DNA of 64,000 nt from Sneathiellales bacterium (lineage in GTDB: Bacteria > Pseudomonadota > Alphaproteobacteria > JANQFL01), in NCBI GenBank assembly GCA_028277845.1, contig JANQFL010000070.1, positions 1-64,000 of the forward strand, in the 5' to 3' direction. Numbering within the stretch: the stretch's first letter is position 1; each line of letters begins with the position of its first letter. The notes under the pieces are model-generated. The model searched no databases and was not told where the DNA came from. It was given only the letters and a program-made list of their open reading frames with translations. The translations under genes were made by a program, and so were the position numbers. This document shows, in pieces, positions 49,690 to 64,000 of this stretch.

Positions 49690-50015
49690 GGTCTTTCTCC
49701 GGTTTCCGGGACGGAAAGAAAGTTCTTTTCGTCCTTATGCCGAATCTATGACCCCCGCTATTAATAAATAGTAAACTCGGTAAGAAAAAGAATAGTTACA
49801 AAGAAAATTTCACATGAATGTGATAAATCCGTGATGTTTCGAATAATTGTATTTCATTCTAAATTGTCGACAAGTATTCAACTAAATTTGTTTTTTCTGT
49901 AGTGCGGAGTGACTTTTATTGATTTGGTTTTCAAGTGCTTGCACGGCGGGTGATCGTTGACAGGCAAAGGGTGCGTTTAGTAAAGATGGCGCGCGCCATG
50001 ACCATCAGGCGATCA
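49690..50015. other. AT-rich gap before tRNA-Ser
   Basis: No gene supported. The base composition drops clearly between 49740 and 49930. The right end carries a plausible tRNA promoter. Confidence 0.5.
49957..49986 (+). promoter_or_regulatory. Possible promoter of tRNA-Ser
   Basis: TTGACA at 49957-49962 and TAAAGA at 49981-49986, spaced by 18 bases, about 30 bp before the mature tRNA start. The -10 is a poor match, so this is tentative. Confidence 0.35.
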
Positions 50016-50783
50016 GGAGCGGTGGGTGAGTGGCTGAAACCAGCGGTTTGCTAAACCGCCGTACTCTTTAAAGGGGTACCGAGGGTTCGAATCCCTCCCG
50101 CTCCGCCACTCCCGTACAAAACTGGACACCCCGGTGCGAAAAAAAGTCTCAGGGTCTGATGCGGCTTCTAAAAGCCCAGATTTCTGCCCTTTGATCCCGA
50201 TCCTTTGCTCGCCAACCACAACCTGATCAACAAGGAAGCGCACGTAATTCCTCGCCATTACCGAACCCGGCTCTCGCAACTTTGCCTTCAGCGCACGTCC
50301 AAAGGCATCAAGATTGCGGTTTGACAGTAGCTTTGGCGGTACGTCGTGACGCTGCCGGTTTACGGCTCGCAGATGGATCAGCTCATCCCGTCTTTGCGTG
50401 TGCTTCGATAGCCGCCGTCTGAAAGTGTCCTCATCCTGCACAAGTCCGTTCTCAATAGCTTCGTACAGGCGTTCTATAGATTGCTCTACATGACGTAGTT
50501 CCCGGTTCAGGTCCTTCTCTCTTTCTCGCCATGCGCTTCGTTTCTCGAGAATTCGGCTCGCCAGTCCGGAAAGCAGTTCTTTCAGCCGGTCAGGTACAAG
50601 TAGCCGTGTTTCGATTGCATCCAAAACTATTTCGTCGAGATGCTCCATACGGATGCTACGGCCAGGGCAGGCTTTCCTGCCTTTGGTCGCCGCATGCGAG
50701 CATGCGTAGTGTTCTGAGCGAGTATTGACCTGACAGTTGGGTCGGCACCGGGTCTCATTATGGGTGAGGTCGGGTGTGGCCAT
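50013..50783 (-). pseudogene. Truncated large serine recombinase (C-terminal part), reading into tRNA-Ser
   Basis: 256-codon remainder of a site-specific serine recombinase. It begins inside the zinc-ribbon domain (EHYACSHAATKGRKACPG), followed by the coiled-coil region (AWREREKDLNRELRHVEQSIERLYEAIENG) typical of large serine integrases. The catalytic N-terminal domain is missing and the break coincides with the left end of the IS481-type element (50784). The last 31 codons are the reverse complement of tRNA-Ser and give the familiar SGRDSNPR string, so the native protein end is uncertain. This places the original attachment site at the tRNA 3' end. Confidence 0.85.
50016..50108 (+). tRNA. 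tRNA-Ser(GCU)
   Basis: Acceptor stem GGAGCGG pairs with CCGCTCC (50098-50104), discriminator G, encoded CCA at 50106-50108. Anticodon GCT lies in TTTGCTAAA, with a 7-base loop and CCAGCGG/CCGCC stem region. A long variable arm (GTACTCTTTAAAGGGGTAC) marks class II tRNA-Ser. The T-loop GGTTCGAATCC is standard. Its 3' end is the probable attachment site of the neighbouring element. Confidence 0.95.
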
Positions 50784-51666
50784 GCCGCTCCTGAGAGGGG
50801 TTAGGATTTGTTTTGCACAAACAGTCCGACCATTTCAGGAGAAGACGACATGACCACGAAGGATAAGGTAGCACGGCGCAAGTTGAGTTTGCTCGAATTG
50901 GCGACGGACCTGGACAATGTGTCCAAGGCCTGCAAGCTGATGGGCTATTCGCGTCAGCAGTTCTACGAGATCCGCCGTAACTTCCAGACCTATGGCGCCC
51001 AGGGGCTGATCGACCGTCTGCCCGGGCCCAGGGGGCCGCACCCGAACCGGGTGCCGGAAGAAGTCGAACAGGCGATCCTCGCGCACGCTCTCGACCATCC
51101 CAGCCACGGCCCCTTGCGGGTCGCCCAGGAACTGACGCTTCAGGGCATCCAGGTCTCGTCGGGCGGAGTGCGCGGCGTCTGGGGCCGGCTCTATACCGCC
51201 AAGCTGCCGGTTACCGCCGTGCATGTCATGAACAACGACGTGCTGCCCACCTTCGAGCAACACGGCGCCCGCATCACCACCGTGCTCAGCGACAATGGCC
51301 GCGAGTATTGCGGCCGGCCCGACAAGCACCCCTATGAGCTGTTCCTGCAGCTCGAGGAGATCAAGCATCGCACCACCAAGGTGCGCCGGCCGCAATCCAA
51401 CGGCTTCGTCGAGCGCCTGCACCGCACCCTGTTGGACGAGCACTTCCGCGTCATGGGACGGACCAAATTCTACGACAGTGTCGACGAGATGCAGAAGGAC
51501 CTCGATGCCTATCTCGTCACCTACAATACCAAGCGGCCGCATCAGGGCCGCGGCATGCAAGGAAGAACGCCCGCAACCGTCTTCGTCGCGGGCCTGCCCA
51601 AAGTGAAAAACCGAAAGGAGGTAAAACCGAAAAAAGCCGCCTAAACCAATCCCGCACAGGAGCGGC
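50784..51666 (+). mobile_element. IS481-family insertion sequence, internally deleted
   Basis: Bounded by imperfect terminal inverted repeats: left 50784-50804 (GCCGCTCCTGAGAGGGGTTAG) and right 51646-51666, 17 of 21 bases matching in inverted orientation. Single transposase gene inside. At about 0.88 kb it is shorter than full IS481-type elements. I see no target-site duplication outside the repeats, so the flanks have probably changed since insertion. Confidence 0.75.
50850..51644 (+). pseudogene. IS481-type transposase with internal deletion
   Basis: 264-codon frame from ATG 50850 (after AGGAGAAGACGAC) that stays open. The N-terminal helix-turn-helix part (VSKACKLMGYSRQQFYEIRRNFQTYGAQGLIDR) and the C-terminal catalytic half (TTVLSDNGREYCGRP, VRRPQSNGFVERLHRTLLDEHFR, YNTKRPHQGRGM) are intact. 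Between them GGVRGVW joins directly to GRLYTAKLPVTAVHV near base 51184, so the segment that normally carries the first catalytic Asp of the DDE triad is gone. The protein should be inactive although the frame survives. Confidence 0.82.
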
Positions 51667-52257
51667 GACTGTCAGGCGATATCCATCTCTGTACAGCCCT
51701 GGCAATGTATTTTGAACCCCCCGTGTTACTAATCACGGGGGCAAGTGACTTGGTTCCCATGCTACCAAGATGATGCTCTTTCGAAAACACAAGCATTATT
51801 GATGCCCTTTCAAAGGCGACGCTCGGGTGCATGACATTTCCCAATCAAATTTGGTTGAGCATGAGGGAGTATCGTCTGCCTAGGCGCAAGTTGTACATAT
51901 AGATTAAAAGCGGCCTCGTAGGCGGCGTGTTTTTGTGGCTCAATCCCACACAAATACTGCAGATTTTCAGTGTTCAGGACCTCTGTCGAAACCGAACGTT
52001 GCCCACCTCGAGAGTCGCTCTGGCCAGTCCTATTCGAGTGTCCGTAACTCTTGATCGGCCGCGGCGCCACTGGCACCATTTTGTAACAAAAATGAAAAAA
52101 TAATACACTTACGCTACAAATTAAATTAGTAATTCTACTATATATACAAGTCGGCTTCGCAAAATTCGCAAATTCGGACTCGTTCGAGCTGATGATACAT
52201 CCTCACATGGAGATCAGCTGTGTTTTTGATGCGATACCAAATTCAGGTCCTAGATCA
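51667..52257. other. AT-rich gap in the island with a hairpin
   Basis: No gene supported; the short frames here have no recognisable sequence. Positions 51718-51741 hold an inverted repeat (CCCCCGTG, 8-nt loop TTACTAAT, CACGGGGG), possibly a recombination or transcription signal. The segment 52080-52190 is strongly AT-rich and likely carries the promoter of the downstream three-gene operon. Confidence 0.45.
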
Positions 52258-52512
52258 ATGATGAATCCCTTCAGGTGTTTACTGTTTATGTTGGTTTTTC
52301 TCGCTGGGTCGGGACTTGATCAACACGCCTATGCGTACCTCGATCCGGGCACAGGAAGCATGGTGCTGCAGCTCCTTTTGGGGGGAATTGCCGGCGCCCT
52401 CGTGGTTGGCAAGCTGTACTGGCATCGGTTTAAAAGCATGTTTGGCAGAAGCGCGTCCAACCCATCGACCGAGAACCACCGAGACGCGCAAGATTCCCAA
52501 AACGAAAAATGA
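52258..52512 (+). CDS. Small membrane protein of the AYLDPGTGS type
   Basis: 84-residue protein with an N-terminal hydrophobic helix that may be a signal peptide (CLLFMLVFLAGSGLDQHAYA), then AYLDPGTGSMVLQLLLGGIAGALVVGKLYW, i.e. a conserved motif plus a transmembrane helix, and a hydrophilic tail. Such short proteins are remembered next to NoeA-like methyltransferase genes, but no function is established. ATG 52258 or 52261 are both possible. Its stop overlaps the next ATG by three bases (ATGA), so it is co-translated with the methyltransferase. Lower GC than the chromosome. Confidence 0.7.
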   Translation: MMNPFRCLLFMLVFLAGSGLDQHAYAYLDPGTGSMVLQLLLGGIAGALVVGKLYWHRFKSMFGRSASNPSTENHRDAQDSQNEK

Positions 52513-53906
52513 ACAATTTCGTCCCTGATCCCGGCTCGTTTCGGGATCCGAGTGGCCGTATCTATGTGCTCGGCGACAAGGTGTACCGCACGATCACGGA
52601 CTATGCTGCCCGTGATTTCGAATATGTGCGCGGCACAGGGCTGATAGATCGTCTTGTTGCTGACGGACGGCTCATCGGCGCCGACATCGTTCCCGTCGAC
52701 GTTCTTGGGGAGGTTGGAAAGGATGCCCGGTATGTCGTCGAGCACCCGCGTCTGCCCTTTGTGTCATACCCTTACGAATGGCCGTTTCCGGCGTTGAAGG
52801 CGGCAGCTCTGCTTCATCTCGACATCCACCTCGCGGCTCTCGATGCAGGCGTGACCCTGTCCGATGCGACTGCCTACAACGTACAATTTCTTGGTACCCG
52901 CCCAGTGTTTATTGATCTGTTGTCGTTCCAGAAATACAACAAAGGTGACATGTGGACAGGGCATCGTCAGTTCTGCGAACAATTCCTCAATCCGCTCTTA
53001 CTGCGATCCGAAGTCGGCGTTGTTCACAATCACTGGTATCGCGGTGCGCAAGAAGGCCTGAGTGCGTCCGATCTGAGACGCATTTTGCCATGGAGAAGCA
53101 AGCTGTCACGCAATGTCTTGCTGCACGTTATTGCACAATCCGCTTTCCAGAAATCTTCGAGCACGACAACCCTTAGCAAAAGTGAATTAGCGTCAACGCA
53201 ATTTCCGCTCGCATCCTATCACAACATGCTGACCAAATTGCGGAACTGGATTCAAATGCTCCAACCGGCGGATACCGGTAAAACGGTTTGGCACGACTAC
53301 GAGAAACATCACAGCTACGAAGGCCACGAGTTTGAAGCAAAGAAAGCGTTTATCGGCAAATTCGTGAGCACTGTTAAACCCAAAATATTGTGGGATCTCG
53401 GTTGCAATACGGGTGATTTTTCAAAAGTCGCTTTAGAAAATGGTGCCGCATATACGGTCGGCTTCGATTTCGATCAGGGGGCGCTGGAGTTGGCGTTCGA
53501 CCGAGCCGAAACAAACGACTTAACGATACAGCCATTGTTCCTTGATGGCGCAAATCCTTCCCCCAGCCAAGGCTGGAACGAATGCGAAAGAAAAGGGCTG
53601 ATGGAACGGGCTAATGCCGAAGCTCTCATCGCCTTGGCGTTCATCCATCACATCGTGATCGGAAAAAATGTCCCTCTCGTCGACGTAACCGGCTGGCTGA
53701 CAAACCTGGCCCCTCGAGGAGTTATTGAGTTCGTGCCGAAGCAGGATCCGATGGTCAAAAAACTTTTGTCGCTTAGAGAAGATATCTTCGCAGACTACAC
53801 GGAAGATAACTTCGCTCGAAGTCTTTCTCAAAAAGTGACTATCGTTCAAACAGAAACGATTACGGATAGCGGTCGGAAACTGTTCTGGTTCGAACGCCTG
53901 AACTAG
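52509..53906 (+). CDS. NoeA-like SAM-dependent methyltransferase with kinase-like N-terminal half
   Basis: 465-residue protein. The C-terminal half is a class I SAM methyltransferase (ILWDLGCNTGDFSKVALENGA, YTVGFDFDQGALE, ALIALAFIHHI). The N-terminal half (residues 1-230) contains LSDATAYNVQFLGTRPVFIDLLSFQ, whose D-x4-N and ID spacing recalls the catalytic loop and metal-binding Asp of protein-kinase-like folds; this is an inference. The best-known relative is the nodulation protein NoeA. Middle gene of a three-gene operon; 15 bp before the next gene. GC content is below that of the flanking chromosome, in keeping with acquisition. Confidence 0.78.
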   Translation: MNNFVPDPGSFRDPSGRIYVLGDKVYRTITDYAARDFEYVRGTGLIDRLVADGRLIGADIVPVDVLGEVGKDARYVVEHPRLPFVSYPYEWPFPALKAAALLHLDIHLAALDAGVTLSDATAYNVQFLGTRPVFIDLLSFQKYNKGDMWTGHRQFCEQFLNPLLLRSEVGVVHNHWYRGAQEGLSASDLRRILPWRSKLSRNVLLHVIAQSAFQKSSSTTTLSKSELASTQFPLASYHNMLTKLRNWIQMLQPADTGKTVWHDYEKHHSYEGHEFEAKKAFIGKFVSTVKPKILWDLGCNTGDFSKVALENGAAYTVGFDFDQGALELAFDRAETNDLTIQPLFLDGANPSPSQGWNECERKGLMERANAEALIALAFIHHIVIGKNVPLVDVTGWLTNLAPRGVIEFVPKQDPMVKKLLSLREDIFADYTEDNFARSLSQKVTIVQTETITDSGRKLFWFERLN

Positions 53907-53921
53907 CGGGTTGTCTCAGCG

Positions 53922-55601
53922 ATGGCAAAGTATTTGTCCAACGTATTCGCCAAAGATAGATCGTCCTTGCTGACCAACCTTCTGGTGTTCTTTCTGTGCC
54001 TGTTCACCCCCTATCTGGTGTTCGTAACCAACGCTGAATTTTTGCTCGAGTCGGCGAACGCCTATTCGGTTGCGTTGTTTGCCGCATTTGCCGGCGTCCT
54101 TTCTGTCTTACTTCGGCTGACGCCGTACACATTGCTAAGAATCCTTATCCTCACCTGCTTGATTCTCTTGTTCATCGATATTCAGTTTGACTGGATTCAA
54201 TGGTGGGGAAAGAAGGTCTTGGCGACAACCATCGCTGTTTTCCTGGTATTGTGGATTGCCCGCAGACACGTTAGCGAGATCTTGGTTGCCATCCTTGGCG
54301 TTGCCGTCGTGACGACCGTTGTCACTTCGCCAGAAATTCTCGCGCCTTTGTTCGGCCCGGCAGCAGAGAAAAGGACGGCAGGCGGTACGAAAGACTTACC
54401 CGTCTACGTCCACATCATCCTCGACGAGCAACTAGGCATCGAAGGTTTCGATACATCGATTCCAAGCCACAAAGACATGAAAGAGGAAATCGGTCGATTC
54501 CTTTTGGATAACAGGTTCCGTGTATCGAGTAGAGCGTACAGTCGCTTCTACGATTCGATCGATGCGATCTCCTCTACTTTCAATTTTGGTCAGATAGAAA
54601 ACCTAGGTTCGACCTACACTGGGGACTCTTCGGACTACACTTTGCTGACAAACTCATATTTTGAGAACCTCATCTTAAAGGGTTACAAGATCAAGGTGTA
54701 TCAATCTACGTATATGGACTTCTGCAAATCTGTAGATACCGGGATAGACGAATGTTTAACCTATAAACACTTCGGCGTCTCGGGAGACGCATTAGCTGGA
54801 CTTTATAGATCTGAAAAGGCGTCCATTGTCTTAGGGCTATACAGCAAACTCTCGTTTTTCATTGACGAATTTATTTCGTTCTACAACAACATAAATCTCT
54901 TGGAAACTGTTGGCGTATCACTGCCTGAGTGGACGGCGTTTCCGGTTAAGGTTGGGCCGATACCTGCGTTACCCGTGTTCGACACCTTGATCGAAGATGT
55001 GTCCAATTCAACGGGTGGAACGGTGTTCTTGGCACACTTACTGATCCCCCACTATCCTTACTCCGTCGATTCGTCGTGCCAGATACGGCGACCCGTACTT
55101 AAGTGGTCCAAGCGCTATACGTTCTTGCCGCCCAATCCGCCGAACTCTCCACAATCCAGGCTCGCCCGCTACGAGGAGTATTTCTCCCAGATCCGATGTA
55201 CATTGCTCAAGCTCGACATCCTCCTGGATAAAATGAAATCAAAGGGAATATACAAAGAATCCACTATCATCATTCACGGTGACCACGGATCTCGAATAGT
55301 GCTGAACGAACCTCGATTTTCCAACAAAATGAATTTGTCTCGAAGAGACTACATTGACGCATTTTCAACGCTCTTTGCTGTCAAGACACCGAGTCTAGAG
55401 CCAGGATTTGATACAAGAATGCTCGCGCTCGATGAGCTATTGGGCGGCATAACTACGGATGGCATCGTTTCAACGCCCTTGAGCGGAAAAAATAAGAATC
55501 CATTCATCTTCCTACGCAAACAGGGTAGCTCAGAGCTTGTCAAGTTACCGATGCCAATCCTGCCATTCACACGGAATGAATCTTCTATTTCGAAGAACTA
55601 A
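53922..55601 (+). CDS. Membrane-anchored alkaline-phosphatase-superfamily (sulfatase-like) protein
   Basis: 559-residue protein with about five transmembrane helices in residues 15-140 followed by a large extracytoplasmic domain. That domain has alkaline-phosphatase-superfamily traits: VYVHIILDEQLG (first metal-site Asp), SRFYDSIDAISSTFNFG (region where Ser/Thr nucleophiles sit), FLAHLLIPHYPYSVD, and STIIIHGDHGSRI (Asp-His metal site). The layout resembles phosphoglycerol or phosphoethanolamine transferases of the LtaS/MdoB/EptA kind, although not a clear match to any. Last gene of the island operon; probably modifies a surface glycan or lipid. Lowest GC of the three. Confidence 0.75.
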   Translation: MAKYLSNVFAKDRSSLLTNLLVFFLCLFTPYLVFVTNAEFLLESANAYSVALFAAFAGVLSVLLRLTPYTLLRILILTCLILLFIDIQFDWIQWWGKKVLATTIAVFLVLWIARRHVSEILVAILGVAVVTTVVTSPEILAPLFGPAAEKRTAGGTKDLPVYVHIILDEQLGIEGFDTSIPSHKDMKEEIGRFLLDNRFRVSSRAYSRFYDSIDAISSTFNFGQIENLGSTYTGDSSDYTLLTNSYFENLILKGYKIKVYQSTYMDFCKSVDTGIDECLTYKHFGVSGDALAGLYRSEKASIVLGLYSKLSFFIDEFISFYNNINLLETVGVSLPEWTAFPVKVGPIPALPVFDTLIEDVSNSTGGTVFLAHLLIPHYPYSVDSSCQIRRPVLKWSKRYTFLPPNPPNSPQSRLARYEEYFSQIRCTLLKLDILLDKMKSKGIYKESTIIIHGDHGSRIVLNEPRFSNKMNLSRRDYIDAFSTLFAVKTPSLEPGFDTRMLALDELLGGITTDGIVSTPLSGKNKNPFIFLRKQGSSELVKLPMPILPFTRNESSISKN

Positions 55602-56407
55602 TTCTTTAAAATTTCAGTCTCGGACGGGCAGATCAACGACAGCCACCCAGTTCTCATTTTCGTCGTGTCGGGTGCACCAAGCGTTTATGGTTGGGCTGAA
55701 ATGAGTACGTTGGAAGAGCGAATCCATTGTAAATTCGCTTTTGAACTTTGGTCTCGAACCTAATTGAAGTAAGTCATGATCGGTGATGCGAGACGGTTAC
55801 AATCCAGTGCCCAGATTTATCCTCCTCGGCCCGCCACTTTAGCCGCCGCGACATCTTCAAGCAAAACCGCTCAGCCGCCCTTGCCGAGTGGGGTCGGCTG
55901 GCGGCCGGAGAGTGCCAGCCCTCCGTATTGAGAGGGCCAAGGCGATTGGTCTGACAAAGCCTGTCGGCGACGGAGATACTGAAGCTGCAGCAAGCGCAAG
56001 CAAAATGCTGACCCTAAGCGCAAGAATTCACTTTTAGTGAATTTGATATCGGCTAACCAGGATTCTCGACTCGATAACGCGCATCAGTTCGACTGTTCAC
56101 CAATCCAACCGGCTGCAGAGCGACGGGCGGCAAGCGCGAGATAGGCGTCCCCGCGCACCCAGTCATGGGCATGAACAGACGAATGGCCGGTCGAGCCTGC
56201 ATTCCGTCAAACTCCTCGCCACGATCAAATCTGCCATCAGAAAAATGGAAATCACAGAGCACTAAATTGTTTTTTACCTGATGCACAGGCCGAGCATAAG
56301 CTTGCCTCGGAAAAACGGTGAGGCCGATCCGGTGTGAATGGGGATTGTGAGCTTAACAACACCGCCTGCCGCCGAAACGCAGGGAACCAGTCAAGGAGAC
56401 GAGAGGG
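55602..56407. other. Gap at the right side of the tRNA-Ser island
   Basis: No gene supported. Positions 55819-55838 match the last 20 bases of the tRNA-Ser end region at 15 of 20 bases, including an identical CCGCCACT; this may be an old attachment site. A short frame around 55890-56038 recalls recombinase tails only vaguely. The last 130 bp should carry the promoter of the monooxygenase operon. Confidence 0.4.
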
Positions 56408-57112
56408 ATGTCGGAACCGAAAGTATTGTCGCCACAGCTCATCACAAATTCCGAAATGGTGTATCTGGTGTGGGAAGCCGCCGATAAAGAAGCTCTGGCA
56501 CGCTATGTTCCCGAAGGCTACCGTGCCAGCGACCAGGGCACCGTCTACATGAACCAGTATTGGGTGACCGATCAGGACCAACATTCCAACGGCGCGCACC
56601 CCAACGGCTGGGGACCGTACAGCCTGACATACCTGGGTGTTGAGCTGGCCGATCACGACCTGTTCGATGGCACCCCGTGCCGCTGGTGGACCCACTACTA
56701 CAATTCTTCCGAAAGCATGCGGACATATGCCAGTGACCGAGGCATTCCCGCGGCTCCAGGAAAAACGCATCTGGAAATCTCGGACACCGCCGTTGAGGCC
56801 ACGACGTTCATCGACGAAAAGCCGGTGATTCGCTCGAACATGACCTTTGAGAATCGGCGGAGCCCGACGGTCAGCGGTCAGCTTCTGTACCTGACGCGGC
56901 GTAACGGCAAGCTCGAGAAGGGCCGCTATCCCTTCGTCGGAAACGTGATGGAGGGTTTCGAGTGTCAATCGATCGAATTCCTCGATCCGGAGAGTCCGTT
57001 CCACGACCTGCGTCCGAATCATCCGTTGAATGTCACCTTCGGGTTCTATTCCCCGAATCTGACCTTTGTTTACCCGGGCGGCCAGCAGATGGCCGACGAA
57101 CAACCTTTTTAG
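56408..57112 (+). CDS. Acetoacetate decarboxylase-like protein at the head of the monooxygenase operon
   Basis: 234-residue protein matching the acetoacetate-decarboxylase superfamily in length and layout: VWEAADKEALARYVPEGYRASDQGTVYMNQYWV, an acidic central part, and a beta-rich C-terminus (LNVTFGFYSPNLTFVYPGG). I cannot identify the catalytic Lys with certainty, so true decarboxylase activity is unproven; ADC-fold dehydratase or lyase activities are also known. ATG 56408 follows GGAGACGAGAGGG. It lies 97 bp before the monooxygenase alpha gene on the same strand, which suggests a role in converting the oxidised product. Confidence 0.7.
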   Translation: MSEPKVLSPQLITNSEMVYLVWEAADKEALARYVPEGYRASDQGTVYMNQYWVTDQDQHSNGAHPNGWGPYSLTYLGVELADHDLFDGTPCRWWTHYYNSSESMRTYASDRGIPAAPGKTHLEISDTAVEATTFIDEKPVIRSNMTFENRRSPTVSGQLLYLTRRNGKLEKGRYPFVGNVMEGFECQSIEFLDPESPFHDLRPNHPLNVTFGFYSPNLTFVYPGGQQMADEQPF

Positions 57113-57209
57113 GCGGTCCGACTCGAATTCCGAAGACCTCCGACGCGTGGCCGGCGCCGCGCGTCAACCGGATCGGTTTGCGCCAAGCAATCAATATTGG
57201 AGGAAGGAA

Positions 57210-58700
57210 ATGGCTCTACTTGAACGTTCCGAATGGTACGACTACACGCGAATGACAAACTGGACGCCGAAGTTCGTCAGCGAAGAAGAAGTATTTCCTG
57301 CCATGCACTCCGGCATGGCGGACGTCCCGTTGTCCGTTTTTGACAGCTATGACGAACCTTACAAGATCTCTTATCGCGAGTATGTGGACGTGCAGCGGCA
57401 AAAAGATGCCGGCGCCTACTCCGTCAAGGCGGCGTTGGAACGCGCGGACATGTACAATCGGGCATCGCCCGGGTGGATCAGCGCGGCGAAGCTGCACTAC
57501 GGCGGCGTTCCGGTGGTTGAGTATCACGCCTCGCTTATGGAATCCCGATTCGTCCGTTTTGCCAAGGCTCCGGGAATGCGCAATATGGGCTGCTTCGGTG
57601 CCATGGACGAGAACCGTCATGCGCAAATCCAGTTGGCCTTCCCGCATGAATACATCGACAAGGACAGGCAGTTCGATTGGGCGACCCAAGGCTATCGCAC
57701 ACAGAACTGGGGAATTCTCGCGGCGCGTAATCTGTCAGACGATATGATGATGACGCGCGACGTGGTGCAGACCGCGATCATGCTTAACTTCGCGTTCGAA
57801 ACCGGCTTCACCAATCTGCAGTTCATCGGGCTGAGCGCCGACGCGGCGAACGCCGGCGATTACAGCTTCGCCAAAATGATCCAATCGGTCCAGTCCGACG
57901 AGGCGCGCCACGCGCAACTCGGCACACCCTTGCTGAAGTTGATGATGGAGAACGGCCACGAGGCCGAGGCCCAGCGCATGGTCGACATTTCGTTCTGGCG
58001 GACCTGGCGACTGTTTGCGGTGCTTTCGGGAATTCCCATGGATTACTACGTGCCGCTCGAGCATCGCGAGAACTCATGGAAAGAGTTCATGGAGGAGTGG
58101 ATCATCGAGCAGTTCGAGCGGAACCTGAGGGATCTCGGTCTCCAGCGTCCGTGGTACTGGGACTACTTCCTCGAGGATCTTTCCGAGGAGCATCACGGCC
58201 AACACATCGGAACCTACTCGTGGCGGCCGACCCTGTGGTGGAATCCTACCGCAGGCGTTTCCAAAAACGAGCGCGAGTGGCTGGAAGAGAAGTATCCGGG
58301 CTGGAACGATACCTTCGGCAAGGCATGGGACGTGGTCATCGACAACATGGCAAACGGTCGGATGGAGCAGACCGTGCCCGGAACATTGCCCGTCATCTGC
58401 AAGGTTTCCAACCTTCCGGTCGTCGGAATACCGTTCAAGACGGCGAAGATCGAACAGATCACCTACAAGGGTGAGAACATCCAATTCGGTTCGATCGTCG
58501 ACAAGTGGATATTCGAGCAAGACCCGGAGCGCTATTGCCGCACGCAGACGATCGTCGATCGTTTCCTGGCCGGCAAGGTCCAACCGGCCGACTTGGGTGG
58601 TGCACTCCAGTATATGGGCCTCGGTGTGGTCACGGATCCTGCCGACGACTCCATGGGCTACAGCTGGGTCGACGAGTATCGCCCTGCGGCAGCCGAATAA
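57210..58700 (+). CDS. tmoA: Soluble diiron monooxygenase alpha (hydroxylase) subunit, toluene/isoprene type
   Basis: 496-residue large hydroxylase subunit that carries the diiron centre and inserts one oxygen atom into an aromatic or alkene substrate. All six iron ligands are present at toluene-monooxygenase numbering: Glu104, Glu134, His137, Glu197, Glu231, His234; gate Thr201 is also conserved. The sequence from the N-terminus (ERSEWYDYTRMTNWTPKFV) to the tail (AGKVQPADLGGALQYMGL) aligns with TmoA/TouA. Substrate-pocket positions differ from remembered toluene-4-monooxygenase residues (176 is Ser rather than Phe). ATG 57210 follows GGAGGAAGG. Second gene of the operon. The symbol denotes the family role, not a proven substrate. 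Confidence 0.92.
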   Translation: MALLERSEWYDYTRMTNWTPKFVSEEEVFPAMHSGMADVPLSVFDSYDEPYKISYREYVDVQRQKDAGAYSVKAALERADMYNRASPGWISAAKLHYGGVPVVEYHASLMESRFVRFAKAPGMRNMGCFGAMDENRHAQIQLAFPHEYIDKDRQFDWATQGYRTQNWGILAARNLSDDMMMTRDVVQTAIMLNFAFETGFTNLQFIGLSADAANAGDYSFAKMIQSVQSDEARHAQLGTPLLKLMMENGHEAEAQRMVDISFWRTWRLFAVLSGIPMDYYVPLEHRENSWKEFMEEWIIEQFERNLRDLGLQRPWYWDYFLEDLSEEHHGQHIGTYSWRPTLWWNPTAGVSKNEREWLEEKYPGWNDTFGKAWDVVIDNMANGRMEQTVPGTLPVICKVSNLPVVGIPFKTAKIEQITYKGENIQFGSIVDKWIFEQDPERYCRTQTIVDRFLAGKVQPADLGGALQYMGLGVVTDPADDSMGYSWVDEYRPAAAE

Positions 58701-58722
58701 GCCCTGGAAAAGGAGATAGGAC

Positions 58723-58977
58723 ATGGCAACCGTACCGCTGGCGATTCTTTTCGAGGGAGACTTCGTCTTGAAACTTCTGCCCGTCGAAAGCGAAGACACG
58801 ATGGACGTGCTGGCCGAAAAGGCACGCACTGTCACCATCGGCGTCCATATCGCGGATCAGCCAGGCAAGGCGATCCGAGTTCGCAAGGAGGGCAATGAAG
58901 AACCGTACCCGCGCGACATGACCGTCGAAACTGCGGGGCTTACTCCAATGGACGGCGTGAACCTCTACTTCGAGTAG
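58723..58977 (+). CDS. tmoB: Monooxygenase gamma subunit (TmoB-like)
   Basis: 84-residue small hydroxylase subunit, ubiquitin-like, that completes the (alpha-beta-gamma)2 hydroxylase. It matches TmoB in length and pattern (VPLAILFEGDFVLKLLPVESEDTM, then MTVETAGLTPMDGVNLYFE). ATG 58723 behind AAAAGGAGAT; 22 bp after the alpha gene. In toluene and isoprene monooxygenase operons a Rieske ferredoxin gene would follow here, but the next gene is the effector. Confidence 0.9.
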   Translation: MATVPLAILFEGDFVLKLLPVESEDTMDVLAEKARTVTIGVHIADQPGKAIRVRKEGNEEPYPRDMTVETAGLTPMDGVNLYFE

Positions 58978-59040
58978 ACCCGAGCGTCAATCAGGACACC
59001 AGTTGCCGGCCCGTTTCGGTTCGGCGAGGAGGTAATGACA

Positions 59041-59334
59041 ATGTTGGATATCAATCGGGTCGTAGGGCCTGTCATGCAGTCGGGTGAGATCGCGCAGGCC
59101 GTTGTCGAGGCCATCAAGGAGGACAACGCTCCGAAGGAAGTAGAGGTCCTTGACCGCGGGTCCTACATCCGCATCTCCGTCGAGGATGAATGCGTCATCA
59201 ATCGCACGACCGTGGAACGCATGGTGGGGCGGCCATTCAAGATGTACGAGATGGAAGCCTACATGAGTGCGTTTAACGGGCAGATAGAAACCAGTACCGA
59301 ACAGGTGCGTTTCTACATGCTCGGGAACGCCTGA
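59041..59334 (+). CDS. tmoD: Monooxygenase effector / coupling protein (TmoD-like)
   Basis: 97-residue cofactorless regulatory protein that binds the hydroxylase and raises turnover and specificity. Typical pattern: NRVVGPVMQSGEIAQAVVEAI, DRGSYIRISVEDECVINRTTVERMVGRPFKMYEME. ATG 59041 lies 8 bases after AGGAGG; ATG 59035, only two bases after it, is unlikely. It follows the gamma gene directly instead of the ferredoxin. Confidence 0.92.
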   Translation: MLDINRVVGPVMQSGEIAQAVVEAIKEDNAPKEVEVLDRGSYIRISVEDECVINRTTVERMVGRPFKMYEMEAYMSAFNGQIETSTEQVRFYMLGNA

Positions 59335-59358
59335 ATACTGGAATCGGAAGGACAGGAC

Positions 59359-60348
59359 ATGTCTGAAAACGTCGCAACTCTGAAGCCATTGAAAACCTGG
59401 AGCCATCTCGCCAAGAATAGACGGCGGCCGAGTGAATACGAGATCGTTTCGACGAATCTACTGTGGAACATGAGCGAGAACACTCCGCCGGAGGCCGGTC
59501 AGGGGCTCGCCATGGACGAATGGCATCACAAGTACCGGTACGGTTCGCCGCTGACGCACTCCGACTGGGACGGGTTCCGCGATCCCGACAGCTTGGTCTA
59601 TCGGACCTACAACATCATCCAGGACGGTCAGGAAACATACGTCGAGAATTTGTGTGATGAGTATTCCAGCCTGGAGCACGACGCCGGCTTGGCACCGGAG
59701 TGGCTGGAAGCTCTGGAAGCATTCTACACACCGGCGCGTTACCCTCTGAATATCTGCATGATGAATGCAGGTTACGGGGCGGCGTTCGCCCGGTCCTCGA
59801 CGATCGTCAACACCTGGGTGTATCAGGCCGCGGACTCGCTGCGCCATCTCTCCAGGCTGGCCTACCGCACCGCTGAGCTCAAGAAGAACCACCCCTCTCG
59901 ACGTTTCGGAGATAGTGAACGCGAGGTCTGGGAACACTCGCCCGCTTGGCAGGGCTTCCGGGAGCTGTTCGAAAAATCGCTGGTCGCCTATGACGTAGGG
60001 GAACACTTCGTTGCGTTCAATCTCGTCGCAAAGGTTGCGTTCGATGAGACGCTCGTGGCCGAATTCGCCCGCTGCGCGCGGATCGCCGGCGACGACCTGG
60101 CGGCGCTGATTTCCGACAGCCATATGCGTGACGTTGAACGCAGCAGGCGCTGGAGCAGGGCTCTCGTCGAGTACTGTGTCGAGGATGATCCGGCCAACAA
60201 GGACGTGATCAACGGCTGGCTTGAAAAATGGGTTCCGCTCGCAGAACGCTCCGTTTCGGAACTGCTCTTGATATTGCCCGGTGCGGACGCCACCGCGGCA
60301 AATGCACGGGCTCGGAAGTTCCGCAATGATCTCGGTCTGGATCGTTGA
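59359..60348 (+). CDS. tmoE: Monooxygenase beta subunit (TmoE-like)
   Basis: 329-residue second hydroxylase subunit, ferritin-like fold without metal ligands. The pattern includes TWSHLAKNRRRPSEYEIVSTNLLW, YGSPLTHSDWDGFRDPDSLVYRTYNIIQDGQETYV, then LNICMMNAGYGAAFARSSTIVNTW and ADSLRHLSRLAYRTAEL, all usual for TmoE/TouE. ATG 59359 after GGAAGGACAG, 24 bp beyond the effector gene. Confidence 0.92.
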   Translation: MSENVATLKPLKTWSHLAKNRRRPSEYEIVSTNLLWNMSENTPPEAGQGLAMDEWHHKYRYGSPLTHSDWDGFRDPDSLVYRTYNIIQDGQETYVENLCDEYSSLEHDAGLAPEWLEALEAFYTPARYPLNICMMNAGYGAAFARSSTIVNTWVYQAADSLRHLSRLAYRTAELKKNHPSRRFGDSEREVWEHSPAWQGFRELFEKSLVAYDVGEHFVAFNLVAKVAFDETLVAEFARCARIAGDDLAALISDSHMRDVERSRRWSRALVEYCVEDDPANKDVINGWLEKWVPLAERSVSELLLILPGADATAANARARKFRNDLGLDR

Positions 60349-60429
60349 CGAAATCGCCTTCCTGTCCGAGGGGACGCGTGGGCCTGCCGCCTGCCGTCCC
60401 CCGGAACAAGTGGCGAGGAATGCCGCACA

Positions 60430-61443
60430 ATGACGGAAACGAGACACAAGATCACGATCGAGGGTGCGGGTGTATCGTTCGACTGCGCGGCGGATGATAC
60501 CATCCTGCGCGCGGGCCTGCGCGCCGGCTTCGGGCTGCCCTACGACTGTAACGTCGGCGCCTGCGGCAACTGCAGGACTAAGCTGGTGTCCGGCGATGTC
60601 GTCAGCAACTGGCCTGATGCCCCCGGGCTGTCGCCGCGCGATGTGCGCAAGGGCAAAATCCTGGGATGCCAGTGCCGTCCGACCGGCGACACGACGATCG
60701 ACGTGCGACTCGATCCCGGAATGGCGCCACCGGTACCGCCGCGCAAGACGCCCGTTCGTCTGACTTCCTGGAAATCGATAACCCATGACATGTTCCAGTT
60801 TGACTTCCAGGGCGAGGGTCCCGTTGACTTCGTGCCGGGTCAGTATGCGCTGATCACTCTTCCAGGCGTCGGTGCGCCGCGCGCCTATTCAATGGCCAAC
60901 TTGCCCAATGCCGAGGGGATGTGGAGCTTCATCATCCGTCGCGTGCCCGGGGGCAAGGCGACGTCGTGGCTGTTTGACTCCAAACAAGCCGGCGCGGTGG
61001 CCATCCTGGACGGGCCTTACGGCAACGCCTATCTGCGCGAGGACAATCCGCGCGACATCGTCTGTATCGCGGGTGGCTCGGGCTTGGCTCCGCTGGTATC
61101 GATCGTCCACGGTGTTGGTGCCAGGGCGGCGATGCAAAACCGCATCCGATTCTTCTATGGTGCGCGTACTCGAGACGATGTCTACGACCGCGGACTTCTG
61201 GCAAGCGCCGGCCTCTCCGCCGGTCGGATCGATCAAACGATCTCTCTCAGCGAGGGTTCGGCCTCGGGCGACTTGAGGGCCGGATTTATTCACGAGCATG
61301 TCCAGCAAGCCCTTCAAGGGCAAATGAACGAGTTCGTCTACTATGTGGCCGGCCCGCCTCCGATGACCGACGCTGTCACCAGAATGCTGGTGATTGACAA
61401 CCAGGTTGATATTGCAAACGTGCACTACGACCGATTCTTTTGA
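60430..61443 (+). CDS. tmoF: Monooxygenase NADH reductase (TmoF-like)
   Basis: 337-residue electron-transfer reductase that moves electrons from NADH to the Rieske ferredoxin. N-terminal plant-type [2Fe-2S] domain with Cys40, Cys45, Cys48 and Cys80 (YDCNVGACGNC, ILGCQC). An FAD domain follows (PRAYSMANLP), then an NAD domain (CIAGGSGLAPLVSIV, YYVAGPPPMTDAV). ATG 60430, 81 bp after the beta gene; this is the largest gap between the core genes. Confidence 0.92.
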   Translation: MTETRHKITIEGAGVSFDCAADDTILRAGLRAGFGLPYDCNVGACGNCRTKLVSGDVVSNWPDAPGLSPRDVRKGKILGCQCRPTGDTTIDVRLDPGMAPPVPPRKTPVRLTSWKSITHDMFQFDFQGEGPVDFVPGQYALITLPGVGAPRAYSMANLPNAEGMWSFIIRRVPGGKATSWLFDSKQAGAVAILDGPYGNAYLREDNPRDIVCIAGGSGLAPLVSIVHGVGARAAMQNRIRFFYGARTRDDVYDRGLLASAGLSAGRIDQTISLSEGSASGDLRAGFIHEHVQQALQGQMNEFVYYVAGPPPMTDAVTRMLVIDNQVDIANVHYDRFF

Positions 61444-61466
61444 CCTGGTGGCAACGGAGATCACCA

Positions 61467-61823
61467 ATGAATGAAATTGTGGAACGTACCTTCACCAAGG
61501 TCTGTACTTTGGACGACGTATGGGAAGGCGATATGGATTGCTTCGAGGTCGACGGGATCGAAGTTCTGATCATCGTCTTGGAAGGGGGGCGGGTTGTGGC
61601 CACCCAGTCCATCTGCCCGCACCAGAACGTCGAACTGGTCGAAGGGGAATTCGATGGTTCCAAGGTGTTGACGTGCAAACAACATCATTGGCAGTTCGAC
61701 GTCAGTACAGGAAAGGGCATCAATCCCGAGCACGCTGCCATTGCCATGTATCCGGTCAAGGTTGAGGGCGATGACGTCTTGGTGGACTTGCGTGGCGCAG
61801 AACCAATTTTCTGCGAGCCCTGA
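61467..61823 (+). CDS. tmoC: Rieske [2Fe-2S] ferredoxin of the monooxygenase (TmoC-like)
   Basis: 118-residue ferredoxin with an intact Rieske site: Cys50-x-His52 (SICPHQN) and Cys70-x2-His73 (TCKQHHWQF). It delivers electrons from the reductase to the hydroxylase. ATG 61467 is used; upstream in-frame codons overlap the reductase stop region. In toluene and isoprene operons this gene sits between gamma and effector genes; here it is moved behind the reductase, which is the main oddity of the operon. Confidence 0.9.
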   Translation: MNEIVERTFTKVCTLDDVWEGDMDCFEVDGIEVLIIVLEGGRVVATQSICPHQNVELVEGEFDGSKVLTCKQHHWQFDVSTGKGINPEHAAIAMYPVKVEGDDVLVDLRGAEPIFCEP

Positions 61824-61826
61824 GCC

Positions 61827-62471
61827 ATGAATTGGTCGACCGAACACCGAACCGGTGCCGGCAAGACGGTATCCGGTTCTTCCGGCGTCGTCCTCTACGG
61901 AGGCCCCACCTCGCCGTTCGCTCGCATGGCGCGGGTTTTCGGCGAGGAACTCGGATTGGGCTTCCGCTACGAGGTGATCGATGTCTACAACGCTGAATTC
62001 CTCGATCGCCTCAATCCGCTTCGTCAAATTCCGACGCTTGTCGTCGACGGCGAGCGAGCCGTTTTCGACAGCCGGACGATCTTCGACGTGATGGCCCGAT
62101 GGTCGGGCCGGGAGGATGTTCTTCCCGGTTGCGAAGACGCGCAGGCCACGAGGATTGCCCTTATGTTGGGCGCGACCGAAGCTTGTCTGCAGTACCGGAT
62201 GGAGATCGTTCGCCCGGAGGGGGAGCGTAGCCGGACCGTCGAGGAAAAGCTTTTGACGAGATTGGATCGTTGCCTGGATCATCTCGAAAGCATTGCCGGG
62301 CAAATTACCGACGGACCATTCCGTCTCGAACAAGTCGTCGCAGCCTGCACCTTGGAGTACGTCGATTATCGATACGCGCGGTCCTGGCGCGATCGCTGCC
62401 CGCGTCTGGATTCGTGGAGCAACGCATTCGCACAGCGTGGAAGCATGGTGCGCAGCCGGCCGGCCGAATGA
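61827..62471 (+). CDS. Glutathione S-transferase-like protein of the monooxygenase operon
   Basis: 214-residue GST-fold protein. The thioredoxin-like part is VVLYGGPTSPFARMARVFGEELGLGFRYEVI with cis-Pro in LRQIPTLVVDGERAVFDSRTIFDVM, and a helical C-terminal domain follows. It starts four bases after the ferredoxin stop, so it is part of the operon. In isoprene degradation a GST opens the epoxide formed by the monooxygenase; the presence here suggests that the product is an epoxide or another electrophile, an inference. Confidence 0.82.
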   Translation: MNWSTEHRTGAGKTVSGSSGVVLYGGPTSPFARMARVFGEELGLGFRYEVIDVYNAEFLDRLNPLRQIPTLVVDGERAVFDSRTIFDVMARWSGREDVLPGCEDAQATRIALMLGATEACLQYRMEIVRPEGERSRTVEEKLLTRLDRCLDHLESIAGQITDGPFRLEQVVAACTLEYVDYRYARSWRDRCPRLDSWSNAFAQRGSMVRSRPAE

Positions 62472-62486: not shown

Positions 62487-63422
62487 TCAATCTAGCTCTT
62501 CGCCACCGACCAGGGAGGTGATGTTGCGGAGCGTCACTTCGGTGCGACAGTATTCCCGGAATGCCTGCGCCTGATCGGACATCGGCTTGTTGGGACTCCA
62601 TGCCAAGCCGATGTCCATCGGTGGTACGGCCTCCTTGAGGTCTATGCTTTCGATGCGTTCGGCTTCGAGCGACCAAGGACGGAAAAGCATGTCCGACAGG
62701 ATAGTGACGCCACGCCCGGAGGCCACCATCGAGCGAACGGCCTCGACGGACTGGGTCGCGAACTGGATGTTTGGTTCAACACCGTACTCCGCCCAATAGG
62801 TTTGGGTCGTGCGTTTCGCGTCGTCGATCATCAATTGAATATAGGGTTCGCGGGACACATCCAGTAGGCTCACGACGGATTTGCCCGACAACCTATGACC
62901 CGCCTGGGTCCACAGGCGGCGGGGGGATCTTATCAGGGTTTCGGAGGAGAGCTTATCGGCTTGGCCCAAGTTCGAAACCAACATCAGGGCGATATCCAAC
63001 TCTCCCTCAATCAATTTGTTTTCCAGTTCGACGCGGTCGTACTCAAGAATTTCGATATCGATGCCGCGGTAGGCACGGCTGAAACGGGCCAAGGGCGAAC
63101 TCAGGAAGTAACCGGCAATCGTCACCGTCACGCCCAGGCTCAGTTTTCCGGTCACGGTCAGCTTGTTCCTGGGAATGTCCTCCAACGCGATGGCGACAGA
63201 AGCCATGATTGTGTTGCAGTGACGCAGGAAACGCTGGCCTTCCGGTGTCGGATACACGCCGCGCCGGTGCCGTTCGATTAGCTTCACGCCGACCAAGTCC
63301 TGCAAATCCTTGATGGCGCTGCTCACCGCGGACGCGGAAACGTTGAGCTGTGAAGCCGCGACGTTGATCTTTCTCACCTGGCAGACGGTGATGAAATATT
63401 TGATCTGGCGAAGGGAAATCAA
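62487..63422 (-). CDS. LysR-family transcriptional regulator
   Basis: 311-residue LysR regulator with N-terminal winged helix (LRQIKYFITVCQVRKINVAASQLNVSASAVSSAIKDLQDLVGVKLIERH) and a periplasmic-binding-like effector domain. The start is TTG 63422 with AGGAGG five bases away. It converges on the monooxygenase operon end (15-bp gap) and is divergent from the 5-oxoprolinase gene across 263 bp that holds inverted repeats, so pxpA is the more probable target. Confidence 0.9.
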   Translation of the reverse strand: MISLRQIKYFITVCQVRKINVAASQLNVSASAVSSAIKDLQDLVGVKLIERHRRGVYPTPEGQRFLRHCNTIMASVAIALEDIPRNKLTVTGKLSLGVTVTIAGYFLSSPLARFSRAYRGIDIEILEYDRVELENKLIEGELDIALMLVSNLGQADKLSSETLIRSPRRLWTQAGHRLSGKSVVSLLDVSREPYIQLMIDDAKRTTQTYWAEYGVEPNIQFATQSVEAVRSMVASGRGVTILSDMLFRPWSLEAERIESIDLKEAVPPMDIGLAWSPNKPMSDQAQAFREYCRTEVTLRNITSLVGGEELD

Positions 63423-63685: not shown

Positions 63686-64000
63686 ATGAAGGCCGAAATT
63701 AACTGCGATATGGGCGAGGGGTTTTCGATCTACAGGGTCTGCGACGACGCTGAGATGATGAAGCATATCAACATCGCCAATGTGGCCTGCGGCTTTCATG
63801 CCTCAGATCCGGTTGTCATGCATCACACCGTGAAACTGGCGAAGGACAATGGGGTACGTGTTGGCGCGCACCCCTCCTATCCCGATAAGCAGGGTTTTGG
63901 GCGGCGAGAGATGAAAATCGAGCGAGAGGAGCTTCGTGATCTGCTGATTTTTCAGGTTGGCGCGTTGAAGGGCTTCCTGGACTTGCACGACATGGCGCTA
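63686..64000 (+). CDS. pxpA: 5-oxoprolinase subunit A (LamB/YcsF family), cut by window edge
   Basis: Partial; 105 codons visible. The start MKAEINCDMGEGFSIYRVCDD and NVACGFHASDPVVMHHTVKLA with RVGAHPSYPDKQGFGRREM are diagnostic of PxpA/YcsF. PxpA with PxpB and PxpC cleaves 5-oxoproline to glutamate with ATP. ATG 63686 follows GGAGAAAG. Partners pxpB and pxpC would be expected beyond the edge. Confidence 0.92.
   Translation, partial: MKAEINCDMGEGFSIYRVCDDAEMMKHINIANVACGFHASDPVVMHHTVKLAKDNGVRVGAHPSYPDKQGFGRREMKIEREELRDLLIFQVGALKGFLDLHDMAL

Follow-up and report, generated by a model that had tools for sequence, protein, structure and literature searches.

Introduction

Soluble diiron monooxygenases of the toluene-monooxygenase type have six components, whose genes usually, though not by definition, follow one another in the order A-B-C-D-E-F. 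Here we describe an operon of this type at positions 56408-62471 of a 64,000-nucleotide stretch of Sneathiellales DNA (the window, by which we mean the whole stretch analyzed), in which the ferredoxin gene C is displaced and which stands beside genes for a homologue of the 5-oxoprolinase subunit PxpA and a biotin-dependent carboxylase. In the relevant passage of PMC13274462, the assumed roles are phosphorylation of 5-oxoproline for PxpB and PxpC and its opening for PxpA. Caprolactamase is unrelated in sequence to PxpABC, and a section of PMC8453981 discusses mechanisms with bicarbonate for that enzyme. Genes for split carboxyltransferases (CT) are stated, in a passage of PMC3199775, not to have been studied as of 2011.

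What is new in the locus is a clade of toluene-type diiron monooxygenases tied to a predicted biotin-dependent, lactam-opening module; the kind of enzyme is itself known. No paper joining toluene monooxygenase, 5-oxoprolinase subunit and biotin carboxylase genes was found in the open-licence literature searched by those terms. Three papers contain two of the three, and in the excerpts of one of these, PMC8267890, toluene monooxygenase and biotin carboxylase occur once each, in unrelated passages.

Results

A clade with a rare gene order and a probable PxpA partner

The operon comprises eight open reading frames (ORFs), all open and on the forward strand, in the order given by the original prediction and with gaps of 97, 22, 57, 24, 81, 23 and 3 bases (Table 1); ORFs, Pfam and searches of PDB sequences bear out genes, strand and order alike. 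Above the Pfam cut-offs are Phenol_Hydrox in alpha and beta, TmoB in gamma, MmoB_DmpM in the effector, Rieske in the ferredoxin, Fer2, FAD_binding_6 and NAD_binding_1 in the reductase, and GST_N families in a glutathione S-transferase (GST), whose GST_C_2 match is slightly below cut-off. The six-component set is complete, as TmoB gamma, Rieske ferredoxin, Fer2 reductase and effector are all present with alpha and beta. Judged by its sequence, the operon encodes a soluble diiron enzyme of the toluene-monooxygenase type together with a GST. Direct reading of the sequence places the start of alpha at ATG 57210 rather than at the mechanically called TTG 57066, and that of the ferredoxin at ATG 61467.

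The gene order in the window is A-B-D-E-F-C as opposed to A-B-C-D-E-F, and an acetoacetate decarboxylase (ADC)-like gene precedes it. A search for the same order, proposed with the original prediction, found the arrangement ADC-like, alpha, gamma, effector, beta, (reductase), ferredoxin in four other genomes, all Actinomycetota: Nocardia sienata (L008), Nocardioides albidus (L018), an Acidimicrobiia metagenome-assembled genome (L010) and the Acidimicrobiia-class genome G1456 (L076). A pattern scan of contigs gave 11 loci with relatives of alpha, of which L008, L018 and L010 match at 65-68% in the best segment and have the ADC-like gene first; L076 was added by a later search of the Acidimicrobiia class. 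The search for alpha covered 58 genomes, own included (the own genome and one genome with copies of 56% and 54%), 301 genomes of the Nocardia sienata family (10 with a match, only Nocardia sienata at 65%), 245 of the Nocardioides albidus family (3 with a match, 1 in the clade) and 247 of the Acidimicrobiia class (5 with a match, 2 in the clade). When 37 loci were scored by script, four had the order A-B-D-E-(F)-C, 32 had C between B and D/E, and one was L082 of Rhodococcus koreensis. The position of the ferredoxin, called displaced in the original prediction, is indeed unusual when set against the 33 loci outside the clade, 32 of which have it in the usual place (13 ABCDEF, 16 ABCDE and 3 ABC-E with D undetected), and the sole exception is L082, with A-B-D-E-C and without an ADC-like gene. 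In the records and papers searched, no described enzyme with the ADC-like gene first and the ferredoxin last was found.

The window alpha aligns with ToMO over its whole length and is 57.6% identical to TouA. It keeps all six of the residues E104, E134, H137, E197, E231 and H234 (ToMO numbering), which we take to be the diiron ligand positions, as well as T201 in the same alignment. In a tree of 39 alpha rows, the window and its four relatives form one clade (support 99/96), which sits in an 18-row branch with TouA (100/99). The Xanthobacter Py2 alpha and a 16-row branch made up mainly of actinobacterial alphas lie apart from it. The tree was built without an IsoA reference, and rows were omitted for L017 (matches in pieces), for the second or repeat copies L047, L050, L057, L059, L060, L068 and L069, and for the plasmid matches H2, H4, H5, H7, H8, H10 and H12. 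The alpha is not tightly grouped with TouA, in keeping with the original prediction, while the earlier leaning toward an isoprene or alkene monooxygenase was dropped on this same tree, which held no IsoA. Eleven alpha positions, including K222, Q225 and S229, are common to the five clade members and to at most one other row. The L010 alpha has a long branch; its identity to the window alpha is 68% for residues 1-404 and 58.3% for the whole ORF. L082 falls outside the window clade, also on a long branch, so that its displaced ferredoxin probably arose independently; since its long branch and that of the outgroup meet, the placement is unsure. On a Rhodococcus koreensis plasmid (L086, NZ_CP070611.1 322797-332493), a toluene-monooxygenase-type operon with the ferredoxin after beta is accompanied by an FAD-dependent oxidoreductase, an antibiotic-biosynthesis-monooxygenase-type protein, glyA and a succinate-semialdehyde dehydrogenase (SSADH), and the displacement is apparently independent.

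The conserved partner of this clade, missed when the operon was first read, is probably the neighboring PxpA/biotin-carboxylase module. By script over 21 loci, PxpA follows the monooxygenase in 4/4 other clade loci vs. 0/17 other monooxygenase loci; in 13 of these 17, the sequence runs on for 3.3 kb or more past the final beta or ferredoxin match, about 1 kb of it being reductase. The interval 56408-62471 is shorter than the functional unit, which extends beyond the end of the window. In Nocardia and Nocardioides, the ferredoxin is followed on the same strand by a Tautomerase-family ORF, PxpA, biotin carboxyl carrier protein (BCCP), biotin carboxylase, PxpB and PxpC. The L010 locus has PxpA, BCCP, PxpB and PxpC with a Radical_SAM + BATS (BioB-like) protein after PxpC, and the L076 sequence stops near the end of PxpA. 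In Nocardia and Nocardioides, some 4 to 5 kb separates PxpC from aldehyde dehydrogenase genes downstream. Both of these actinobacterial clusters also carry, after the first pair and on the opposite strand, a second PxpC/PxpB pair of divergent sequence (L043 660-2590, L044 760-2714), in L044 followed by a PucR-type regulator. Before the Nocardia cluster (L008 107-5839) stand genes for an HpaB-type flavin monooxygenase, an Amidohydro_3 protein and a nitrilase-like ORF.

The biotin module and its history

In the genome of the window, a BCCP with the MK motif, a biotin carboxylase, CT_A_B and CT_C_D are all present, which is the domain set of the urea-carboxylase type. Scored against the fused urea carboxylase model (TIGR02712), the separate genes reach 110.4, 233.3 and 512.5, where the cut-off for the fused protein is 1303.85. 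PxpA is above two subfamily cut-offs (NF003814, 265 of 226; NF003816, 237.9 of 213) and does not reach three equivalog models, and PxpB (70.2 of 145.55) and PxpC (214.9 of 500) are both below their equivalog cut-offs. For PxpB, the urea carboxylase model gives the better score (6e-32, compared with 1.6e-19 for the PxpB model), with neither at cut-off.

Ten proteobacterial modules were viewed (eight from the search that gave 91 plasmid records with PxpB relatives, and two from a second search), in the order divergent LysR, PxpA, BCCP, biotin carboxylase, PxpB, PxpC. An annotated LysR gene diverges from pxpA in all ten, its product being 38-44% identical to the window LysR. The Sulfitobacter and Diaphorobacter modules come with a TorT-type transporter and then a molybdenum hydroxylase of the xanthine dehydrogenase family, a class known to hydroxylate N-heteroaromatics beside the nitrogen. 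The Azospirillum module adds the TorT-type transporter, and biotin genes adjoin the module as BioY in the window, the BioB-like gene in L010 and an annotated bioB next to the Acidiphilium module.

The two Pxp trees differ as to where the window falls. Its PxpB is 77% identical to that of Azospirillum and falls with proteobacterial modules that have no monooxygenase in the stretches viewed; monophyly of the four linked PxpBs is rejected (approximately unbiased test, p-AU 0.012, a test made once the tree was known). The window PxpA groups instead with the PxpAs linked to a monooxygenase, among which one Thioclava row also stands (100/100), and supports inside both groups are modest. Since PxpA goes with the linked group and PxpB with the proteobacterial modules, the hydrolase may have travelled with the monooxygenase and the carboxylase may be local. 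The ADC-like gene, the monooxygenase and pxpA may have moved together and joined a resident carboxylase, with the tie kept or remade.

The ADC-fold protein and the GST

The ADC-like protein scores 12.9 bits on PF06314, below the cut-off of 29.8, while its distant relative L026 is above it at 72.2 bits. A structure predicted from four sequences (pLDDT 78.9) has ADC 3bh2 as its best match (Z 19.8, root mean square deviation 3.2, 203 residues), and 12 entries of the ADC superfamily lie at Z 17.6 to 19.8, with the next structure at 6.8. Neither a phmmer search with the protein nor a profile of 14 relatives found an ADC structure, and phmmer with L026 gave only a weak 33-residue stretch. With no direct sequence route to these structures, the test for the catalytic lysine rests on a sequence alignment, not a superposition, with the canonical ADC L087 of Methylobacterium (PF06314 8.7e-67). 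The first lysine of the GxPKK motif forms the Schiff base in ADC. GFPKKWG of L087 aligns with GIPAAPG of the window protein, and the first lysine column is K in L087, where each of the 16 ADC-like rows, the window included, has A, T or S. As the canonical lysine is replaced, the protein is unlikely to be a canonical decarboxylase, and an ADC-type decarboxylase role was dropped. Of the original prediction for this gene, the ADC fold and the first position in the operon stood and the action on a keto or carboxylated product did not.

The ADC-like protein was found in 8 of 346 genomes and, in a separate search, in 5 of 385, own included. Thirteen loci carry it without the monooxygenase cluster (7 of the first search, 4 of the second and 2 plasmids). 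In the 11 of these 13 neighborhoods viewed (L035-L041, L074, L075, L025, L026), no toluene-type monooxygenase stood near the gene, and a FAD_binding_3 protein was seen in two, next to it in L037 and at a distance of 3.6 kb in L039. On a plasmid of Nostoc sp. ATCC 53789 (L025 5100-10314), a 41% relative occurs with a phosphoribosyltransferase, a dienelactone hydrolase family protein and pyrC (dihydroorotase).

The GST had been read as a defining partner, and this we abandoned. No meaningful match to it appeared in any of the four clade relatives by tblastn, even at E<=10. The window GST also gave no significant match in L077, where a gstA is annotated. A distant GST would thus escape tblastn used by itself, and gene spacing is the second ground for the argument: in two relatives, the interval from ferredoxin to PxpA has no room beyond the tautomerase-sized ORF. 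The GST appears, then, to be an accessory not seen in the relatives. In P. aromaticivorans, a GST is annotated after an ordinary toluene operon.

Table 1. Genes of the monooxygenase operon and of the adjoining module. Coordinates marked C119 are those of the contig and continue the window numbering.
Feature	Coordinates	Strand	Evidence or remark
ADC-fold protein without canonical ADC lysines	56408..57112	+	open frame; fold match to ADC 3bh2
Hydroxylase alpha (TouA/TmoA-like, diiron)	57210..58700	+	phmmer to ToMO 1t0q E 1e-202, residues 1-491; ligands kept
Hydroxylase gamma (TmoB)	58723..58977	+	PF06234 1.6e-22
Effector / coupling protein (MmoB/DmpM)	59035..59334	+	PF02406 2.4e-26
Hydroxylase beta	59359..60348	+	PF02332 1.5e-61
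NADH reductase, Fer2-FAD-NAD	60430..61443	+	PF00111, PF00970, PF00175
Rieske ferredoxin, last of core set	61467..61823	+	phmmer to T4MO ferredoxin 1vm9 E 1.5e-31; Rieske motif by script
GST	61827..62471	+	PF13409 2.3e-10
LysR regulator, divergent from pxpA	62487..63422	-	PF03466 1e-38
pxpA (LamB/YcsF), start	63686..64000	+	PF03746 2e-45 on in-window part; gene ends C119:64399
Polyketide_cyc2 protein	C119:64675-65088		
TorT-type binding protein	C119:65466-66743		
ABC ATPase	C119:66777-68333		
ABC permease	C119:68335-69393		
BCCP	C119:69434-69673		MK motif in EVMKS
Biotin carboxylase	C119:69697-71064		
CT_C_D (PxpB homologue)	C119:71080-71955		
CT_A_B (PxpC homologue)	C119:71945-72949		
BioY	C119:72997-73533		
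SSADH	C119:73577-75091		first codon unsure; passes TIGR01780 cut-off
Lumazine_bd_2 protein	C119:75121-75507		

Other features of the genome

Past the module and on the same strand (G000:C119:76780-81788, L073 4780-9788) lie genes for an aldehyde dehydrogenase, an acyl-CoA dehydrogenase and a family III CoA-transferase, with ORFs that read like MaoC hydratases. About 5 kb upstream of the operon, at 50013-51644 of the window, an ORF for a recombinase zinc ribbon overlaps tRNA-Ser (50016-50108) and is joined by a transposase-like ORF; together with a GC content of 48-52% across 52000-56000, this region is a possible island edge. The same genome has a second soluble diiron monooxygenase of another type (L007 8850-14837, G000:C93:122850-128837), encoded as beta, effector, alpha, reductase and a small ferredoxin-like ORF and followed by a catechol-2,3-dioxygenase-like gene, with an upstream regulator ORF that reads like a sigma-54 activator.

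Discussion

The gene content suggests that the cluster may serve the catabolism of a small N-heteroaromatic compound via a lactam, a reading that we hold to be evenly poised and whose substrate and individual reactions we infer from the gene families. The toluene-type diiron monooxygenase would hydroxylate the ring beside the nitrogen to give a hydroxy-heterocycle with a lactam as its tautomer. A split biotin enzyme of the urea-carboxylase type (biotin carboxylase, BCCP and a two-part carboxyltransferase) would then activate the lactam, and the presence of biotin carboxylase, BCCP and both CT halves suggests that this occurs by carboxylation of the amide nitrogen before PxpA acts. PxpA would hydrolyze the activated lactam, and the resulting enamine or semialdehyde would be oxidized by the succinate-semialdehyde-type dehydrogenase. 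The TorT-type ATP-binding cassette (ABC) transporter may import the substrate, and BioY may supply the biotin. This reading draws on the shared gene order and alpha clade, on the linkage of PxpA to the four other clade loci, on the urea-carboxylase-type domain set with its adjoining biotin genes, on the place of the window PxpA among the linked PxpAs, on the molybdenum hydroxylases beside the module in Sulfitobacter and Diaphorobacter, and on the dehydrogenases, of which that of the window passes the SSADH cut-off.

Pyrrole is the favored substrate. With an SSADH as the last enzyme and neither a transaminase nor a ring-cleavage dioxygenase recognized in the cluster, the best fit is a five-membered ring such as pyrrole, since the enamine formed on opening of pyrrol-2-one would decay to succinate semialdehyde and ammonia. 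A route from pyrrole through pyrrol-2-one and 4-aminobutenoate to succinate semialdehyde plus ammonia, and on to succinate, could be written with the genes seen. The more specific proposal that pyrrole-type rings are mineralized to succinate by the diiron monooxygenase and the split urea carboxylase/PxpA, with the lysine-less ADC-fold protein as a new helper that is not a decarboxylase, in an undescribed aerobic pathway, is put forward only tentatively and is rather doubtful.

Several observations weigh against N-heteroaromatic catabolism via a lactam. The clade is known from only five genomes, the window's included, and in two of them, L010 and L076, the reductase is absent from its place, with no match to the window reductase at E<=1e-30 in the genomes G060 and G1456. 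A biotin carboxylase was not seen in the L010 locus, and that of the window passes a model of the acetyl-CoA-carboxylase type and scores lower on urea carboxylase. The Nocardia and Nocardioides aldehyde dehydrogenases lie beyond opposite-strand genes; the former has TIGR01780 (SSADH) as its best model but is below cut-off (555.6 of 646.35), and the latter was scanned against Pfam only. The five linked PxpAs form one group in 7% of bootstrap trees, a grouping that is not rejected (p-AU 0.153), and the Thioclava PxpA among them has no annotated toluene-type monooxygenase within 9 kb. Six of the ten modules viewed stand by different ABC and short-chain dehydrogenase/reductase genes. Upstream, one of these six has UbiD, UbiX and XdhC genes, and another has an allantoin permease together with hydantoinase/oxoprolinase genes; such varied neighbors may mean more than one substrate, yet cyclic amides recur. 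The ADC-fold protein, finally, has no assigned step in the pathway.

Some further points of this kind are just those expected if the enzyme were an ordinary toluene- or benzene-type monooxygenase with a rearranged operon, and the PxpA module an unrelated 5-oxoprolinase or lactamase that lies alongside by chance. In the window, the LysR gene on the opposite strand separates the monooxygenase operon from the pxpA unit; relatives of PxpB often occur where there is no diiron monooxygenase (91 plasmid records at E<=1e-20); and PxpA, the only one found in the genome, could serve 5-oxoproline given that it passes the subfamily cut-off. Among solved structures, too, alpha is closest to ToMO and T4MO, with diiron ligands and T201 kept. 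The linkage of PxpA to all four clade loci and to none of the 17 others argues against chance, as do the biotin carboxylase, BCCP and urea-carboxylase-type CT, which are not part of the PxpABC model as it appears in the passage of PMC13274462. No ring-cleavage dioxygenase was recognized among the ORFs read from C119 50000 to 90000, most of those past 76000 not having been scanned. We regard the hydrocarbon explanation as improbable, though a serious contender.

The same lactam-opening logic could also serve an N-heterocycle with six or more ring members (pyridine, picoline or an indole-like ring), the dehydrogenase then taking glutarate semialdehyde or a related aldehyde, but this is unlikely. 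The diiron monooxygenase PmlABCDEF turns pyridines, pyrazines and pyrimidines into N-oxides, according to a passage of PMC8313251. Also consistent with a larger ring, the dehydrogenase family leaves the chain length unfixed and Nocardia has the HpaB-type and Amidohydro_3 genes upstream, while the window dehydrogenase, which passes the SSADH cut-off, points the other way. Least probable, and very unlikely, is the route first proposed, in which an alkene or aromatic is epoxidized, the electrophile is conjugated by the GST and the keto or carboxylated product goes to an ADC-type enzyme, since the GST and ADC-fold genes within the operon, the GSTs, dehydrogenase and CoA-transferase that act after epoxidation in isoprene clusters (as a passage of PMC12917321 has it) and a CoA_transf_3 gene 18 kb downstream (C119:80559-81788) are set against a GST that lacks a counterpart in the four relatives, replaced canonical lysines, an alpha in the TouA branch apart from that of Xanthobacter Py2, and a CoA-transferase that is distant and in another gene group.

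On the doubtful pyrrole-to-succinate proposal, the biotin module, fed elsewhere by molybdenum hydroxylases, would be a general device for opening N-heterocycles. If N-heteroaromatic catabolism via a lactam is correct, the lactam-linked clade would extend the toluene-type diiron monooxygenases, usually read as hydrocarbon enzymes, to nitrogen heterocycles. With an oxygenase upstream and a dehydrogenase downstream, the substrate of the biotin module becomes directly testable.

Comparison with known systems

The nearest described enzymes are ToMO (touABCDEF) and T4MO (tmoABCDEF), which share the six components and an alpha that aligns over its full length, with TouA in the same branch of the alpha tree. 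They differ in that the ferredoxin gene is third there and last in the window, where an ADC-fold gene comes first and a PxpA/biotin module adjoins. The isoprene cluster isoABCDEF-GHIJ, as described in a passage of PMC12917321, likewise has six components and GST genes close by. Its gene order is different, the window has a single GST, and IsoA was not among the sequences compared; as for isoGHIJ-type genes, the window has the one adjacent GST and the CoA_transf_3 gene 18 kb off, the ORFs between having been read and not all scanned. PmlABCDEF is a diiron enzyme acting on pyridine-type rings, which differs in yielding N-oxides and, to judge from the subunit sizes listed in the part of PMC8313251 at hand, in the order of its components, a comparison made by description only.

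The ADC superfamily (ADC, MppR, Swit_4259) has the same fold as the window protein, which differs in its low identity (12-17%) and in the replaced KK pair. For the module, the PxpABC 5-oxoprolinase offers homologues of PxpA, PxpB and PxpC that likewise stand together in the window, with PxpA above its subfamily cut-off; it differs in that the window module is encoded with a biotin carboxylase and BCCP and has a PxpB that scores higher as urea carboxylase. Urea carboxylase itself has the same set of biotin carboxylase, BCCP, CT_A_B and CT_C_D. No allophanate hydrolase gene was recognized near the window module, where this set is split over four genes and stands beside PxpA.

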